A DNA stretch of 64,000 nt from Actinomycetes bacterium (GTDB taxonomy: Bacteria > Actinomycetota > Acidimicrobiia > Acidimicrobiales > Ilumatobacteraceae), in assembly GCA_029782355.1 (NCBI GenBank), contig JAKOUY010000011.1, positions 62,001 through 126,000 of the forward strand, given 5' to 3'. Positions 3,005 to 14,917 of the stretch are shown here, one piece after another (position 1 is the stretch's first letter; every line of letters begins with the position of its first letter). A program made the position numbers and the translations under genes. The notes beneath the pieces are model-generated. The model was not told the origin of the DNA. It saw nothing but the letters and a program-made list of their open reading frames with translations, and made no database searches.

Positions 3005-4176
3005 ACCGCCGGGCGCCGGTGGCCGAGGCGTGGCGCCACGACCCGTGGGACGATCCGGACGGGACCGGCGAGATCCCCGTCGAGGACGTCCGGGCCAACC
3101 GGCGTCACCTGCGCTGGTACGTCTACGGCGCAGCCGCGCTGGTCATCGTCGCCGTCGTGGTGCTCGGGGTCGTCGGGCTGTGGTACGTCCGTCGGGTCGA
3201 TCCGCCGGGCGACCCCGGGGCTGCGGTCAACTTCACGGTCAACAAGGGCGACACGCTGGACCGCGTCGCCCAGCGGCTGCAGGCCGCCGGGCTGGTGAGC
3301 AGCAAGGACCTGTTCGTCTGGTACGTGGACCACCACGGCGGACTGGTGCTGACCGAGGGCTACTACCGGATCCGCAGCCACGACCACATGGGCAACGTCA
3401 TGCGCGTCCTGAACACCCCACCGTCGGAGACCTTCACCAAGGTGTTGTTCCCCGAGGGGTTCACCGTGGCGAAGATGGCCGCCCGGCTGCACGCCAAGAT
3501 GCCCCAGCTGTCGGCGGCGGCGTTCGAGGCCGCCTCGACGGCCGACCAGCTGCGCTCGAAGTACCAATCGCCCGAGATCAAGAACCTCGAAGGCCTGCTG
3601 TTCCCGGACACCTACCAGGTGTCGAACATCGAGACCGTGACCATGCTGATGCGCCGGATGATCAAGCAGTTCGACCGGGTCGGGGACCAGGAGAAGTTGG
3701 CCGACAAGGCGACCGCCCTGGGGATGACTCCCTACCAGGTGGTGATCATCGCCTCGATGATCGAGCGAGAAGCCAAGACCGACGTCGACCGGCCGCTGAT
3801 CGCCCGGGTGATCTACAACCGCCTGGCCCTGGGCATGAACCTGCAGATCGACGCCACGCTGTACTACGGCCAACCGCCGGACACGCCGTTCGACGTCCTC
3901 AAGGCCACCGACACGCCGTACAACACCTACCTCCACGCCGGCCTGCCGCCGACGCCGATCGCCAATCCGGGCCGGGACTCGCTGCACGCCGCGCTGAACC
4001 CGGCGCCGCCGCTGAACCCCAACGACCCGCTGTGCAAGGGCCTGCCCAAGGGGGAGTCCTGCGCCCTGCTGTACTACGTGCTGAAGGACGACCTCGGCAA
4101 CCACGCCTTCGCCGTCACCGCCGCCCAGCACGAGCAGAACGTGCAGAACGCCCGCAATCTCGGCCTGCTGAACTGA
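3001..4176 (+). CDS. mltG: Endolytic murein transglycosylase MltG
   Basis: 391-residue YceG/MltG family protein that cuts nascent glycan strands of peptidoglycan at the membrane. It has a short charged cytoplasmic N-terminus, one membrane segment at about residues 40-63 (YGAAALVIVAVVVLGVVGLW), a LysM-like region near 76-125, and the catalytic domain. The proposed catalytic Glu is in ASMIEREAK (Glu255), followed by ARVIYNRL and LQIDATLYYG, which are typical of the family. The GTG start overlaps the ruvX stop. Cell-wall polymerases are not adjacent; the neighbours are conserved synteny only. Confidence 0.93.
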   Translation: MNRRAPVAEAWRHDPWDDPDGTGEIPVEDVRANRRHLRWYVYGAAALVIVAVVVLGVVGLWYVRRVDPPGDPGAAVNFTVNKGDTLDRVAQRLQAAGLVSSKDLFVWYVDHHGGLVLTEGYYRIRSHDHMGNVMRVLNTPPSETFTKVLFPEGFTVAKMAARLHAKMPQLSAAAFEAASTADQLRSKYQSPEIKNLEGLLFPDTYQVSNIETVTMLMRRMIKQFDRVGDQEKLADKATALGMTPYQVVIIASMIEREAKTDVDRPLIARVIYNRLALGMNLQIDATLYYGQPPDTPFDVLKATDTPYNTYLHAGLPPTPIANPGRDSLHAALNPAPPLNPNDPLCKGLPKGESCALLYYVLKDDLGNHAFAVTAAQHEQNVQNARNLGLLN

Positions 4177-4183
4177 GCGACGC

Positions 4184-5008
4184 GTGATCACCGCCCGTTC
4201 CCGGGTGGCCGCGGTGATCGGCCACCCCATCGCTCACAGCCTGTCGCCGGCACTGCACCAGGCCGGGTTCGCCAGCCTCGATGCCGACTGGGTGTACGTG
4301 GCCTTCGACGTCGCACCGGGGCAGGGTGCCGCGGCGCTCACGGCGATGCGCACGCTCGGTCTCGGCGGGCTCTCCGTGACCATGCCGCACAAGCAGGACG
4401 TCGCCCGGGCGGTGGACCGACTCGACCCGGCGGCGGCCGCGCTCGACAGCGTCAACACCGTCGCCGTCGCCGACGACGGCGCGCTGGTCGGCTCCAGCAC
4501 GGATGGCGCCGGCTTCGTCGCCTCGCTGGTCGCCGCCGGCCACGGCGTCGAGGGCCGGCGGGTGTGCATCATCGGCGCGGGTGGGGCGGCGCGCTCGATC
4601 GTCGACGCGGTGGCCCGGGCGGGCGCGGCGTGCATCCACGTGGTCAATCGGACCGTGGCGACGGCCGAGCAGGCTGCCGCCCTGGGCGGGGACCGTGGCT
4701 TCGTGGGCGGCGAGCGTGATATCGCCGACGCCGAGGTGGTGGTCAACACCACCCCACTCGGCATGCACGGCGAGCTGGCCTGCGATCCCGCCCTGCTGCA
4801 CGGCGGCCAGGTGGTGGCCGACATCGTCTACCGCCCACGGCGCACGCCGTGGCTGGCCGACGCCGCCGAGCGCGGTGCGGCGACCGTGGAGGGCCTGGGC
4901 ATGCTCGTCCACCAGGCTGCCCTGCAGCAGCAGATCTGGCTCGGCCGGCTGCCGGACATCGCCACGATGACCGCAGCGGCCATGGCCGCCGTCGAACCCT
5001 CCCGTTAG
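4184..5008 (+). CDS. aroE: Shikimate dehydrogenase
   Basis: 274 residues; reduces 3-dehydroshikimate to shikimate with NADPH. Seen are the substrate-binding SLSP motif (HSLSPALHQAGF), the catalytic Lys in SVTMPHKQDV, the dinucleotide-binding GAGGAARSI and the NADP-contact NRT. The GTG start lies 8 nt after the mltG stop. It opens a run of four aro genes on the same strand. The aroC promoter-like hexamer overlaps its 3' end, so aroC can probably also be transcribed separately. Confidence 0.95.
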   Translation: MITARSRVAAVIGHPIAHSLSPALHQAGFASLDADWVYVAFDVAPGQGAAALTAMRTLGLGGLSVTMPHKQDVARAVDRLDPAAAALDSVNTVAVADDGALVGSSTDGAGFVASLVAAGHGVEGRRVCIIGAGGAARSIVDAVARAGAACIHVVNRTVATAEQAAALGGDRGFVGGERDIADAEVVVNTTPLGMHGELACDPALLHGGQVVADIVYRPRRTPWLADAAERGAATVEGLGMLVHQAALQQQIWLGRLPDIATMTAAAMAAVEPSR

Positions 5009-11768: not shown

Positions 11769-13336
11769 TGAGCGACACGGTCGCGCCAGCCCCGGCCGGG
11801 CGGGGTGCGGCGCGGCACCGGATCCGCCGCGCCGCCGGGCGCGCCGTCCGAGGTGGATGGGCGCGGCTGACCCCGTGGCGAGCGTTGTACGCGGCCATGG
11901 TGATCACCTGGACCTGGTACTTCAGCTGGTTGACGCTGCAGGTCCATCACGGGCTGGGGACCTCGAGCTACGACCTCGGTCTGTACGACCAGGGCGTGTG
12001 GTTGCTGTCCCGGTTGCGGGCTCCGTTCGTGACGCTCATGGGTCGCAACCTGATGGGCGACCACAGCTCGTTCATCCTCGTGTTCCTGGCGCCGATCTAC
12101 CGGATCTGGCCGGCGGTCGGGGTGCTGCTCGGGGCGCAGAGCCTGATGGTCGCGCTCGGCTCGTTGCCGGTGTTCCTGCTGGCCCGGGAACGCTTCCGGC
12201 GCGAGTCGGTTGCCGTGGCCCTGGCTGCGGTCTACCTCCTGCATCCGGCCGTTGGGTGGACCAACCGGGAGGGCTTCCATCCCGATTCGTTCCTCGGCTG
12301 CTTCGTCGGGATGGCCATCTACGGCGCGTTGCAGCGCCGGTGGCGGGTCTACGTCGTCTTCGTCGTCCTCGCCCTGCTGGTCAAAGAGGACGTCGCCCTG
12401 GTGCTGGTCCCGCTCGGCATCTGGGTGGCGTTGAAGCGCGACCGGCGCATCGGCATCGCCACGATCCTCGGCTCGGTGGGCTATGCGGTGTTCGCCATGT
12501 ACGTGGTGATGCGCAGCCTGATCGGTGTGCCGACCCGCAACGGCTGGCGGATCCCCTTCGGCGGCCCGATGGGACTGTTCCGCGAGACCGTCAGCAGACC
12601 GGGCAACGTGTTCGAGTACCTGCGCAGCGAGCGCCGGCCGTTCTACCTGTGGCAGATGACCTTCCCGGTGGCGTGGGTGTTCGCCCGCGCTCCGGGCGTG
12701 GCCCTGATCAGCGCCGGGGTGCTGTCCGGCAACCTGATCAGCACCTTCTGGTACCAGTACCACGTCGAGTACCACTACTCGATGATCGCCGTGCCGGCGC
12801 TGGTGCTCGGGTCGGTGCACGCCCTGACCCGGGTCACCCGCACCGTCCGCCACTGGCTGGTGGCGGCGATGATCCTGGCGGGCGTGTGGTCGGCCCTGAT
12901 GTGGGGGCCGCTCCCGCTCGGCGACGTGCTCTGCGCGCCGGTGCGGGCGGTGGGGGCGTCGTGCGCACCGGTCGGCCGGGCCCCGGCCGGGTACTGGACG
13001 CCGGAGGTGCCCCAAGCCGTGGCCGCCCGGGCGATCATGTCCGAGATCCCCGCCGATGCGGTGGTCTCGGCGTTCCACGCCCTCGACCCGCACCTGTCGC
13101 ACCGCCGGTTCATCTACCAGTTCCCCAACCCGTTCCGGGTCAGCCTGTACGGCCCGGACCTGACCCTGGAGCAGGCCCGGGCCCGCCTGCCCATCGCCGA
13201 CCGGGTCGACTACGTCCTGCTCCCGGTCAACAAGGATCCGCAGATGCTGGCCGACTGGGCCGGCGAGCAGGCTCGCTACCGGCTGGCCGACCACAATCAG
13301 TACTGGGAGCTGTACCGCCGGATCGGTGCTCCGTGA
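11768..13336 (+). CDS. DUF2079 polytopic membrane protein
   Basis: 522 residues with about ten hydrophobic segments from residue 38 onward and a basic cytoplasmic N-terminus. The sequence YDLGLYDQGVWLLSRLRAPF followed by GDHSSFILVFLAPIYRIWP and EGFHPDSF is characteristic of DUF2079, a family related to GT-C type membrane glycosyltransferases. The function is not established. The ATG overlaps the nusB stop by one base, so it is probably the last gene of the aroQ-efp-nusB operon; a new transcript starts 18-30 bp downstream. Confidence 0.85.
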   Translation: MSDTVAPAPAGRGAARHRIRRAAGRAVRGGWARLTPWRALYAAMVITWTWYFSWLTLQVHHGLGTSSYDLGLYDQGVWLLSRLRAPFVTLMGRNLMGDHSSFILVFLAPIYRIWPAVGVLLGAQSLMVALGSLPVFLLARERFRRESVAVALAAVYLLHPAVGWTNREGFHPDSFLGCFVGMAIYGALQRRWRVYVVFVVLALLVKEDVALVLVPLGIWVALKRDRRIGIATILGSVGYAVFAMYVVMRSLIGVPTRNGWRIPFGGPMGLFRETVSRPGNVFEYLRSERRPFYLWQMTFPVAWVFARAPGVALISAGVLSGNLISTFWYQYHVEYHYSMIAVPALVLGSVHALTRVTRTVRHWLVAAMILAGVWSALMWGPLPLGDVLCAPVRAVGASCAPVGRAPAGYWTPEVPQAVAARAIMSEIPADAVVSAFHALDPHLSHRRFIYQFPNPFRVSLYGPDLTLEQARARLPIADRVDYVLLPVNKDPQMLADWAGEQARYRLADHNQYWELYRRIGAP

Positions 13337-13365: not shown

Positions 13366-13665
13366 ATGTCCCCGCCCCTGCGTGACGTGCTCGGGGCGGT
13401 CCTGCGCGACGAGCGCCACCGCCAGCAGCGCTCGCTGACCGACGTCGCCGGTGCCGCGGCCGTCAGCGTCGCCTACCTCTCCGAGGTCGAGCGGGGTCGC
13501 AAGGAGGTCTCCTCCGACCTACTCGGAGCGATCACCGATGCCCTCGACCTGCCGTTGGCCGACGTCCTCGACGAGGTCTCGACCCGCCTCCGGGGTGGCG
13601 CCCAGGCTCGCGCCCGGATGTCCGGGATGCAGCGCGGCCTGCGCCTCGAGCTGCTCGCCGCCTGA
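13366..13665 (+). CDS. clgR: ClgR-type XRE-family regulator
   Basis: 99 residues with a Cro/C1 helix-turn-helix at about 8-63: [20 protein letters not shown], then [20 protein letters not shown], which is very close to ClgR of actinobacteria, the activator of clp genes. The protein ends ELLAA, an ssrA-like C-terminus; in the literature ClgR is itself turned over by Clp protease. It is convergent with two clpP genes and its last 147 bp are antisense to the end of the second. The ClgR assignment rests on the HTH sequence plus context. Start supported by the hexamer 6 nt upstream. Confidence 0.78.
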
Positions 13666-14256
13666 CGACGCCGGGCGCAACACCCGATCGACCAGCCCGT
13701 AGGCCACCGCTGCGTCGGCGCGCAGCACCATCGCCCGATCGGTGTCGAGGCGGATCTGGGCCGCGGTGCGCCCGGTGTGCCGAGCCAGCAGGGCGTCCGA
13801 CTCGGTGTGGATCGCGGCCAGCTCGGCGGCCTCGTGGGCCAGGTCGGTCAACGAACCGCGACTGGTCGGCGCCTGCGGCTGGTGCAGCACGACCCGGGCG
13901 TGCTCCAGCACGGCCCGTGTGCCGGCAGTGCCGCCGGCCAGCAGCAGTGCGGCGGTGCCCGCCACCTGGCCGATGCCCAGCGTGGCCACGTCCGGGCGGA
14001 CGAACTGCATCGTGTCGTAGATGGCCAGGACCGCACCGAACGACCCACCGGGGGAGTGCAGGTAGAGGCTGATCTCCCGATCGGGGTCGGCGGCGGCGAG
14101 GTGCAGGAGTTGGGCGACCACCACGTTGGCCACCCCGTCGTCGATCTCGGTCCCGACGAGGACGATCCGCTCGGCCAGCAGCCGGCTGTACAGGTCCGAG
14201 ACCCGCTCGCCGCGCGGCGTCGACTCGATCACGTTGGGGATCAGGTAGCTGCTCAC
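13519..14256 (-). CDS. ClpP-family protein with catalytic Ser replaced by Gly
   Basis: About 245 residues. The ClpP fold is clear ([39 protein letters not shown]), but the nucleophile position reads [11 protein letters not shown] where active ClpP has QAAS: residue 100 is Gly (codon GGC). The His (residue 125) and Asp (171) of the triad are kept. It is therefore probably an inactive, ClpR-like subunit that could assemble with the upstream ClpP. After VDRVL an unusual tail of about 50 residues runs antisense to the clgR-like gene. The GTG start overlaps the upstream clpP stop (GTGA), so the two are co-translated. A second functional clpP pair may exist outside the window. Confidence 0.85.
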
Positions 14257-14852
14257 GAGGACGCTGCCAGGCCGACCCGCCGGGTGGAAGGCACCGGGCG
14301 GACCTCGTCGAGCGAGCGGACGACGTGGTCGACGAATCCGTAGGCCCGGGCCTCCTCGGCGTCGAACCACCGGTCCCGGCCGACGTCGGCGATCACCTGG
14401 TCCAGGGGTCGACCGGTGTGCCGGGAGATGATCGCCCGCAACCGCTCGAGGGTCCGCACCAGGCTGGCCGCCTGGATGGCGACGTCGGCGGCACTGCCGC
14501 CGAGCCCGGCAGAACCCTCGTGCATGATCACCTGGGCGTTGGGCAGGGCGAAGCGCTTCCCGGGTGCGCCGGCGCACAGCAGCACCTGGGCCATCGACGC
14601 GGCCAGTCCCATGGCCACCGTGACCACGTCGCAGGGGATCAGCTGCATCGTGTCGTAGATGGCCAGGCCGGCGACCACCGACCCGCCGGGTGAGTTGAGG
14701 TACAGGGTGATGTCGCGGCGCGGGTCGAGGGTCGACAGCAACAGCAGCTGGGCGACGACCCGGTTGGCCGACTCGTCGGTGACCTCCTCGCCGAGCACGA
14801 CGATGCGTTGGTCCATCAGCCGGTCGGCGAGCGTGGGCGCGGATGCAGGCAT
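14253..14852 (-). CDS. clpP: ATP-dependent Clp protease proteolytic subunit
   Basis: 199 residues; serine protease subunit that partners with ClpX/ClpC unfoldases. The triad is visible as Ser86 in MGLAASMAQVLL, His111 in VIMHEGSAGLGG and Asp156 in QVIADVGRD. LYLNSPGGSVVAG and YGFVDHVV are family motifs. MHEG in place of the usual MHQP is unusual. On the minus strand CAGCAT lies 6 nt before the ATG at 14852, supporting this start and a leaderless transcript. It is directly coupled to the Ser-less paralogue downstream and convergent with the clgR-like gene. Confidence 0.92.
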   Translation of the reverse strand: MPASAPTLADRLMDQRIVVLGEEVTDESANRVVAQLLLLSTLDPRRDITLYLNSPGGSVVAGLAIYDTMQLIPCDVVTVAMGLAASMAQVLLCAGAPGKRFALPNAQVIMHEGSAGLGGSAADVAIQAASLVRTLERLRAIISRHTGRPLDQVIADVGRDRWFDAEEARAYGFVDHVVRSLDEVRPVPSTRRVGLAASS

Positions 14853-14864: not shown

Positions 14865-14917
14865 GCGGGTCGGCGGGGTTCGCCGGCGCGTCTACGCCAC
14901 AGGCAGAATGCCGGCGG

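Follow-up and report, generated by a model that had tools for sequence, protein, structure and literature searches.

Why would a bacterium keep, directly beside an intact clpP gene, a second clpP gene whose active site has been dismantled? The question is raised by a locus in the window analysed here, a stretch of 64,000 nucleotides from a genome of the Ilumatobacteraceae, in which two overlapping clpP genes converge on a small regulator gene:

13519..14256, minus strand: clpPb, the ClpP2/ClpP4-type subunit with which this work is concerned; 245 aa, GTG start, Gly100-His125-Ala175
14253..14852, minus strand: clpPa, the ClpP1/ClpP3-type partner; 199 aa, intact Ser86-His111-Asp160, four-base overlap with clpPb
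13366..13665, plus strand: ClgR/PopR-like HTH regulator; 99 aa, convergent, C-terminus LLAA, 147-base overlap with the 3' end of clpPb
13519..13620, minus strand: C-terminal tail of clpPb, about 33 aa past the sibling protein ends in the alignment, antisense to the regulator gene
14892..14908, minus strand: PopR-operator-like box TTCTGCC-TGT-GGCGTAG, differing at 3 positions from the palindrome TTCTGCC-N3-GGCAGAA and located some 56 bases upstream of clpPa

Two clpP genes and a convergent regulator

Both proteins belong to the Pfam CLP_protease family, clpPa with 222.9 bits and clpPb with 197.1 bits, a score that excludes a chance match, and the ClpP1-type gene precedes the ClpP2-type gene in the tandem order that a PopR-type module requires. 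The first-pass annotation had described clpPb as a paralogue with glycine at the nucleophile site, with His125 and Asp171 remaining, joined by a four-base overlap to an upstream clpP with the triad Ser86-His111-Asp156. Much of this was borne out: Gly100 occupies the nucleophile site of the open reading frame 14256-13519 with the codon GGC, His125 is kept, and the two genes share the bases GTGA. The aspartates, in turn, had been misplaced. When clpPb is aligned with M. tuberculosis ClpP2 (chain 5dzk_A), its catalytic-Asp site falls on Ala175, so that two residues have been lost and not one; Asp171 is a different position, unchanged in all rows of an 84-row alignment. In the partner, Ser86 and His111 hold, and the catalytic aspartate is Asp160 instead of Asp156; the resulting spacing of 25 and 49 equals that of the Ser98-His123-Asp172 triad given in PMC9823225. 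The same source reports the residues Glu170-Arg171-Asp172 for Chlamydia ClpP2, where the catalytic aspartate directly follows the ring-contact arginine, and this Arg-Asp rule together with the alignment rules out Asp171 of clpPb and Asp156 of clpPa as catalytic residues. With two of its three triad residues (Ser and Asp) gone, clpPb does not qualify as an active Ser-His-Asp peptidase and falls under the definition of ClpR, a ClpP homologue without the catalytic triad.

A structure model of clpPb residues 1-211, with a mean pLDDT of 92.5, predicts an N-terminal hairpin at 8-21, and its top PDB matches are chains of M. tuberculosis ClpP1P2; an earlier model built from 8 sequences had reached a pLDDT of just 53.3. 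The tail of about 33 residues stems from a displaced stop. As for the tail-to-tail overlap with the regulator gene, it spans 147 bases here (13519-13665), about 44-71 bases in eight of nine siblings, and zero in the remaining one (L118).

The regulator scores 91 bits against the ClgR model, under that model's cut-off of 170, and no stronger ClgR match occurs anywhere in the genome; the label “PopR-like” therefore rests on its position, its Ala-Ala end and the operator. Two C-terminal alanines are the reported degradation signal of Streptomyces ClgR (PMC9775585). The window box is not significant by itself, with 5 matches within the window against 1.93 expected and one half-site degenerate. In eight of the nine siblings, the equivalent box has 0-1 mismatches and lies at 56-65 bases, the window box being at the same position (56 bases), and in sibling L123 no operator box was found upstream. 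A further box, TTCTACCTGTGGCAGAT, lies at 12641-12657 within a DUF2079 gene, with 2 mismatches, and is probably a chance occurrence.

The genome holds five ClpP matches in total, and its 16S is 91.1% identical to the 16S of genome G011. Outside the window clpX is strongly matched twice, with 652.7 and 646.8 bits, at contig ends (C12:2-1844 and C13:2-1728) and each time beside a ClpP2-type match; these may represent either a second clpP2-clpX set or an effect of assembly or contamination.

Relatives in the Acidimicrobiia and the order of the losses

We compared ten Acidimicrobiia members, including the one in the window. Of the 395 genomes in the class sample, 8 contain a member scoring above 350 bits, and the next matches reach 308 bits. 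The catalytic aspartate is absent from all ten (Ala in nine, Thr in one), the histidine is changed in two (Gln, Asp), and the nucleophile site holds Ser in eight, Ala in one and Gly in the window only. Their partners, without exception, carry Ser-His-Asp (10/10). As the aspartate is missing throughout, disablement of this subunit is older than the Ser-to-Gly step, and the simplest order suggested by these sequences would be loss of Asp first and the change of Ser to Gly afterwards. Whether Gly is fixed among orthologues, a check proposed in the first-pass annotation, has thus a negative answer, and a fixed glycine is ruled out.

The eight serines, together with the fact that the glycine is known from the assembly and not from reads, might suggest that GGC, one transition away from AGC, is simply an assembly error. 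We regard this as extremely improbable, since Ala175 alone breaks the triad, the aspartate is lost in the whole clade, and Gly occurs at the Ser site in 11 of the 108 modules described below, the window among them.

The same comparison bears on the view that clpPb is relaxed or decaying, its second active site being dispensable and the gene drifting towards loss without a kept role. The annotation had set relatives with Ser, combined with decay of the gene, against its own proposal; such relatives are indeed the majority, but the frame of clpPb is open, with a third-position GC of 0.91, similar to its neighbours, and clpPb conserves 79 of the 89 columns that do not vary among the nine siblings. 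The 10 departures are the highest number among the ten members (0-6 in the siblings) and, with the degenerate box and the displaced stop, they speak for decay, whereas those of clpPa are within range (3 of 96 invariant columns, against 0-5 in siblings). Against decay stand, besides the open frame and the conserved columns, the retention of the partner and of the overlap, and the persistence of altered subunits with their docking tyrosine across many families (see below). We consequently rejected a pseudogene as the main reading on the open frame and the 79 columns and consider decay unlikely, although a partial relaxation of this clpPb, evolving faster than its siblings, is possible, even likely, from these counts.

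All ten Acidimicrobiia partners have a short N-terminus, with 12-18 residues before the reference Arg (counted from the nearest plausible start) vs 29; this is not general across modules, as 32 residues are found in L176 and 37 in L195.

Recurrent triad loss in the second subunit

An alignment of second subunits, mostly altered ones, served as the query against 394 genomes from the class to which G453 belongs. Loci were taken from 30 plus 96 further places among the matches listed, and 324 loci were scanned, so that the module totals that follow are to be read as “at least”. To count as a module, a locus had to carry a ClpP1-type gene immediately before the second-type gene, together with a convergently oriented HTH gene matching the regulator profile. 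The 130 places gave 109 distinct modules when identical second subunits were counted once, and 108 after dropping L315, which the tree groups with non-module sequences; 181 of 311 second-type hits had no detected partner plus regulator and were left out.

Of the 108 modules, 76 have an altered second subunit, by loss of Ser in 42, by loss of His with Ser kept in 19, and by loss of Asp only in 15, a proportion that is no natural frequency, the query consisting mostly of altered sequences. The contrast between subunits is independent of this bias: the first subunit is Ser-His-Asp in every module (108/108), as are all 223 ClpP1-type ORFs across the loci when repeats are included. Because 32 of the 108 modules have an intact second-subunit triad, its loss is not required. 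Altered triads also appear in 15 of 180 second-type hits without a detected regulator. The four-base overlap between the genes recurs in 64 of 108 modules and an Ala-Ala C-terminus of the regulator in 105. In 73 modules the first gene is preceded by a box with no more than 3 mismatches, compared with about 1.1% of base-shuffled stretches. The box also precedes 22 of 93 other ClpP1-type genes, some of which are perhaps modules whose regulator was overlooked.

These counts also touch on the idea that altered subunits retain a residual or alternative chemistry, either as weak Ser-His peptidases without Asp or with a neighbouring residue as a substitute. The 15 modules lacking only Asp fit such a view, as does Listeria ClpP1, which has Asn at the Asp site and reportedly adopts an active triad alignment within the mixed complex (PMC9765437). 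The window, however, has neither Ser nor Asp, and Ser or His is missing in 61 of the 108 modules, which makes residual chemistry a most improbable general account.

In a tree of 74 modules (thinned from 109) and 25 non-module second subunits, built with the three triad columns removed, every module except L315 falls on one side, and at least seven changes between intact and altered states are needed, of which one falls on the non-module row L069. This count is rough, with 40 of 96 inner branches weakly supported, and counts cannot separate loss from gain; loss is favoured because 24 of the 25 non-module second subunits are Ser-His-Asp. Among the variants, a Streptomyces fungicidicus plasmid carries the same gene order with an annotated HTH gene, the catalytic His of its second subunit being replaced by Gly, and this module nests among 16 modules of family f91, all with the same replacement. 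A Tsukamurella version has Ser changed to Ala, and that of a plasmid from soil Prescottella equi has Ser changed to Gly and Asp to Gln. The plasmid locus L198 contains a single clpP and no pair. In family f150, 9 of 15 distinct modules (L219, L235, L241, L242, L246-L250) show Glu for Ser and His or Asn for Asp. L069 itself (Streptomyces pacificus, about 3117-4603) holds a second ClpP pair. Its ClpP2-type subunit retains Ser but shows Gln in place of His and Ala in place of Asp; in the tree this subunit clusters with the non-module rows, and we detected no regulator gene next to the pair. Our literature search, in the parts of the sources consulted, found no report of recurrent triad loss in PopR-type second subunits, although specialists may know the Streptomyces case.

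The altered subunits have kept other features. Tyr65 is present in all 76, and site 85 is Phe, Tyr or His in all 76; we match these sites to the reported ATPase-docking residues Tyr76/Phe96 of E. coli ClpP and Tyr75/Tyr95 of M. tuberculosis ClpP2 (PMC4416901). Site 85 is Leu in 77 of 108 partners. The N-loop pattern is found in 72 of the 76, and the ring-contact Asp-Arg in 63 of the 76 but only in 26 of the 108 partners.

In the partners, the residue two positions after the catalytic His is Gly instead of Pro (HQG/HEG) in 67 of 108 modules. The change from HQP accompanies 61 of the 76 altered modules vs 6 of the 32 intact ones; with just 4 independent pairs on starred branches a sign test cannot reach significance, so we set aside co-variation as a candidate, and the association is not separable from descent.

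A putative asymmetric core and its known counterparts

The closest known system is clpP3-clpP4 of Streptomyces with PopR, reported as a backup core (PMC9765437, PMC9775585), which shares with our locus the two tandem clpP genes, the four-base overlap and a PopR-like regulator with an Ala-Ala end, the PopR-type operator being found in siblings of the window module. The parallel with ClpR drawn in the first-pass annotation stands for the non-catalytic subunit and gives way to PopR modules as the nearest system. ClpR of cyanobacteria, plastids and apicoplasts is likewise a triad-less homologue beside an active ClpP (PMC7966870), whereas clpPb keeps its His and falls among actinobacterial ClpP2-type sequences (in a tree without ClpR rows), where the losses recur by different residues. 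Compared with the S. fungicidicus plasmid and PopR modules, the window has lost Ser and Asp rather than His, and has a degenerate box and a regulator below the ClgR cut-off. For S. lividans ClpP3/ClpP4, the texts consulted hold no statement on triad loss that we could find; one functional pair, either clpP1 clpP2 or clpP3 clpP4, is reported as essential in that species (PMC9765437), and hence the second core works there.

The housekeeping ClpP1P2 of M. tuberculosis and S. hawaiiensis also combines ClpP1-type and ClpP2-type subunits, but with both triads intact. In these cores ClpP2 is the reported ATPase docking platform (PMC9765437, PMC4416901). Cutting by ClpP1 is described as essential in S. 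hawaiiensis, with full activity when ClpP2 is inactive, its serine being dispensable (PMC9765437), and M. tuberculosis particles with inactive ClpP2 still process fully (PMC4416901). Since published cores dock their ATPase on ClpP2 and process fully with that ring inactive, we read clpPb as a putative non-catalytic docking ring, and clpPa-clpPb as a probable PopR-type asymmetric Clp core with one catalytic and one ATPase-docking ring, to which we assign a probability of roughly 0.7. This reading draws on the triad loss in clpPb beside an intact clpPa, the conserved order, the Ala-Ala ends and operator in relatives, and a loss seen in the second subunit only; the docking-patch sites retained by the altered subunits and the confident ClpP model of clpPb with its hairpin also speak for it. 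Counting against it are the 10 departures, the degenerate half-site, the displaced stop, the intact modules, the partner N-terminus that does not generalise and the low share of Asp-Arg among partners. The two-subunit core with one structural subunit proposed in the first-pass annotation is thus favoured by the comparative pattern, without a fixed Gly and with the regulator and the operator-like box as further parts.

We infer that each ring would consist of one subunit type. By analogy with published ClpP1P2 work, the mixed core would assemble and be active, clpPa forming the cutting ring and clpPb using its N-terminal hairpin and hydrophobic patch to dock the Clp ATPase and closing the chamber without peptidase activity of its own. 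The convergent regulator would switch on the operon and, by analogy with Streptomyces, its Ala-Ala end could mark it for destruction as long as the housekeeping core functions; the second core would then appear once the first one fails.

An accessory subunit could also act on the housekeeping rings themselves, and clpPb may be a modulator that joins or disrupts those rings rather than building a core together with clpPa. The precedent is ClpP_ADEP of Streptomyces hawaiiensis, an accessory ClpP altering a mixed core, which is reported to disrupt ClpP1 complexes and to pair with ClpP2 (PMC12607617). That protein, however, is nearest to ClpP1 and lies beside the ADEP cluster (PMC12607617), whereas clpPb is ClpP2-type and is coupled to its own intact partner gene, through an overlap found in most modules, which makes a modulator very unlikely.

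If the asymmetric core is accepted, one may ask why the site was lost. ClpP3P4 is reported to be ADEP-insensitive (PMC12607617), and S. coelicolor lacking clpP3 and clpP4 is reportedly killed by beta-lactones, for which covalent binding to the serine of ClpP2 has been suggested (PMC9775585). The PopR-type core could be an inhibitor-tolerant backup, its activator building up when the housekeeping core is blocked, whose docking ring repeatedly shed the site attacked by inhibitors under selection rather than neutrally; we consider this extension rather doubtful.

If the asymmetric core is real, bacteria would have several times converted one protease ring to a docking ring that does not cut, always this one among the modules seen, a natural counterpart to the active-site experiments on ClpP1P2. 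Many asymmetric Clp cores would then have seven active sites rather than fourteen, and it would become testable why cells retain a ring that does not cut, be it for ATPase docking, gating, product size or inhibitor tolerance.
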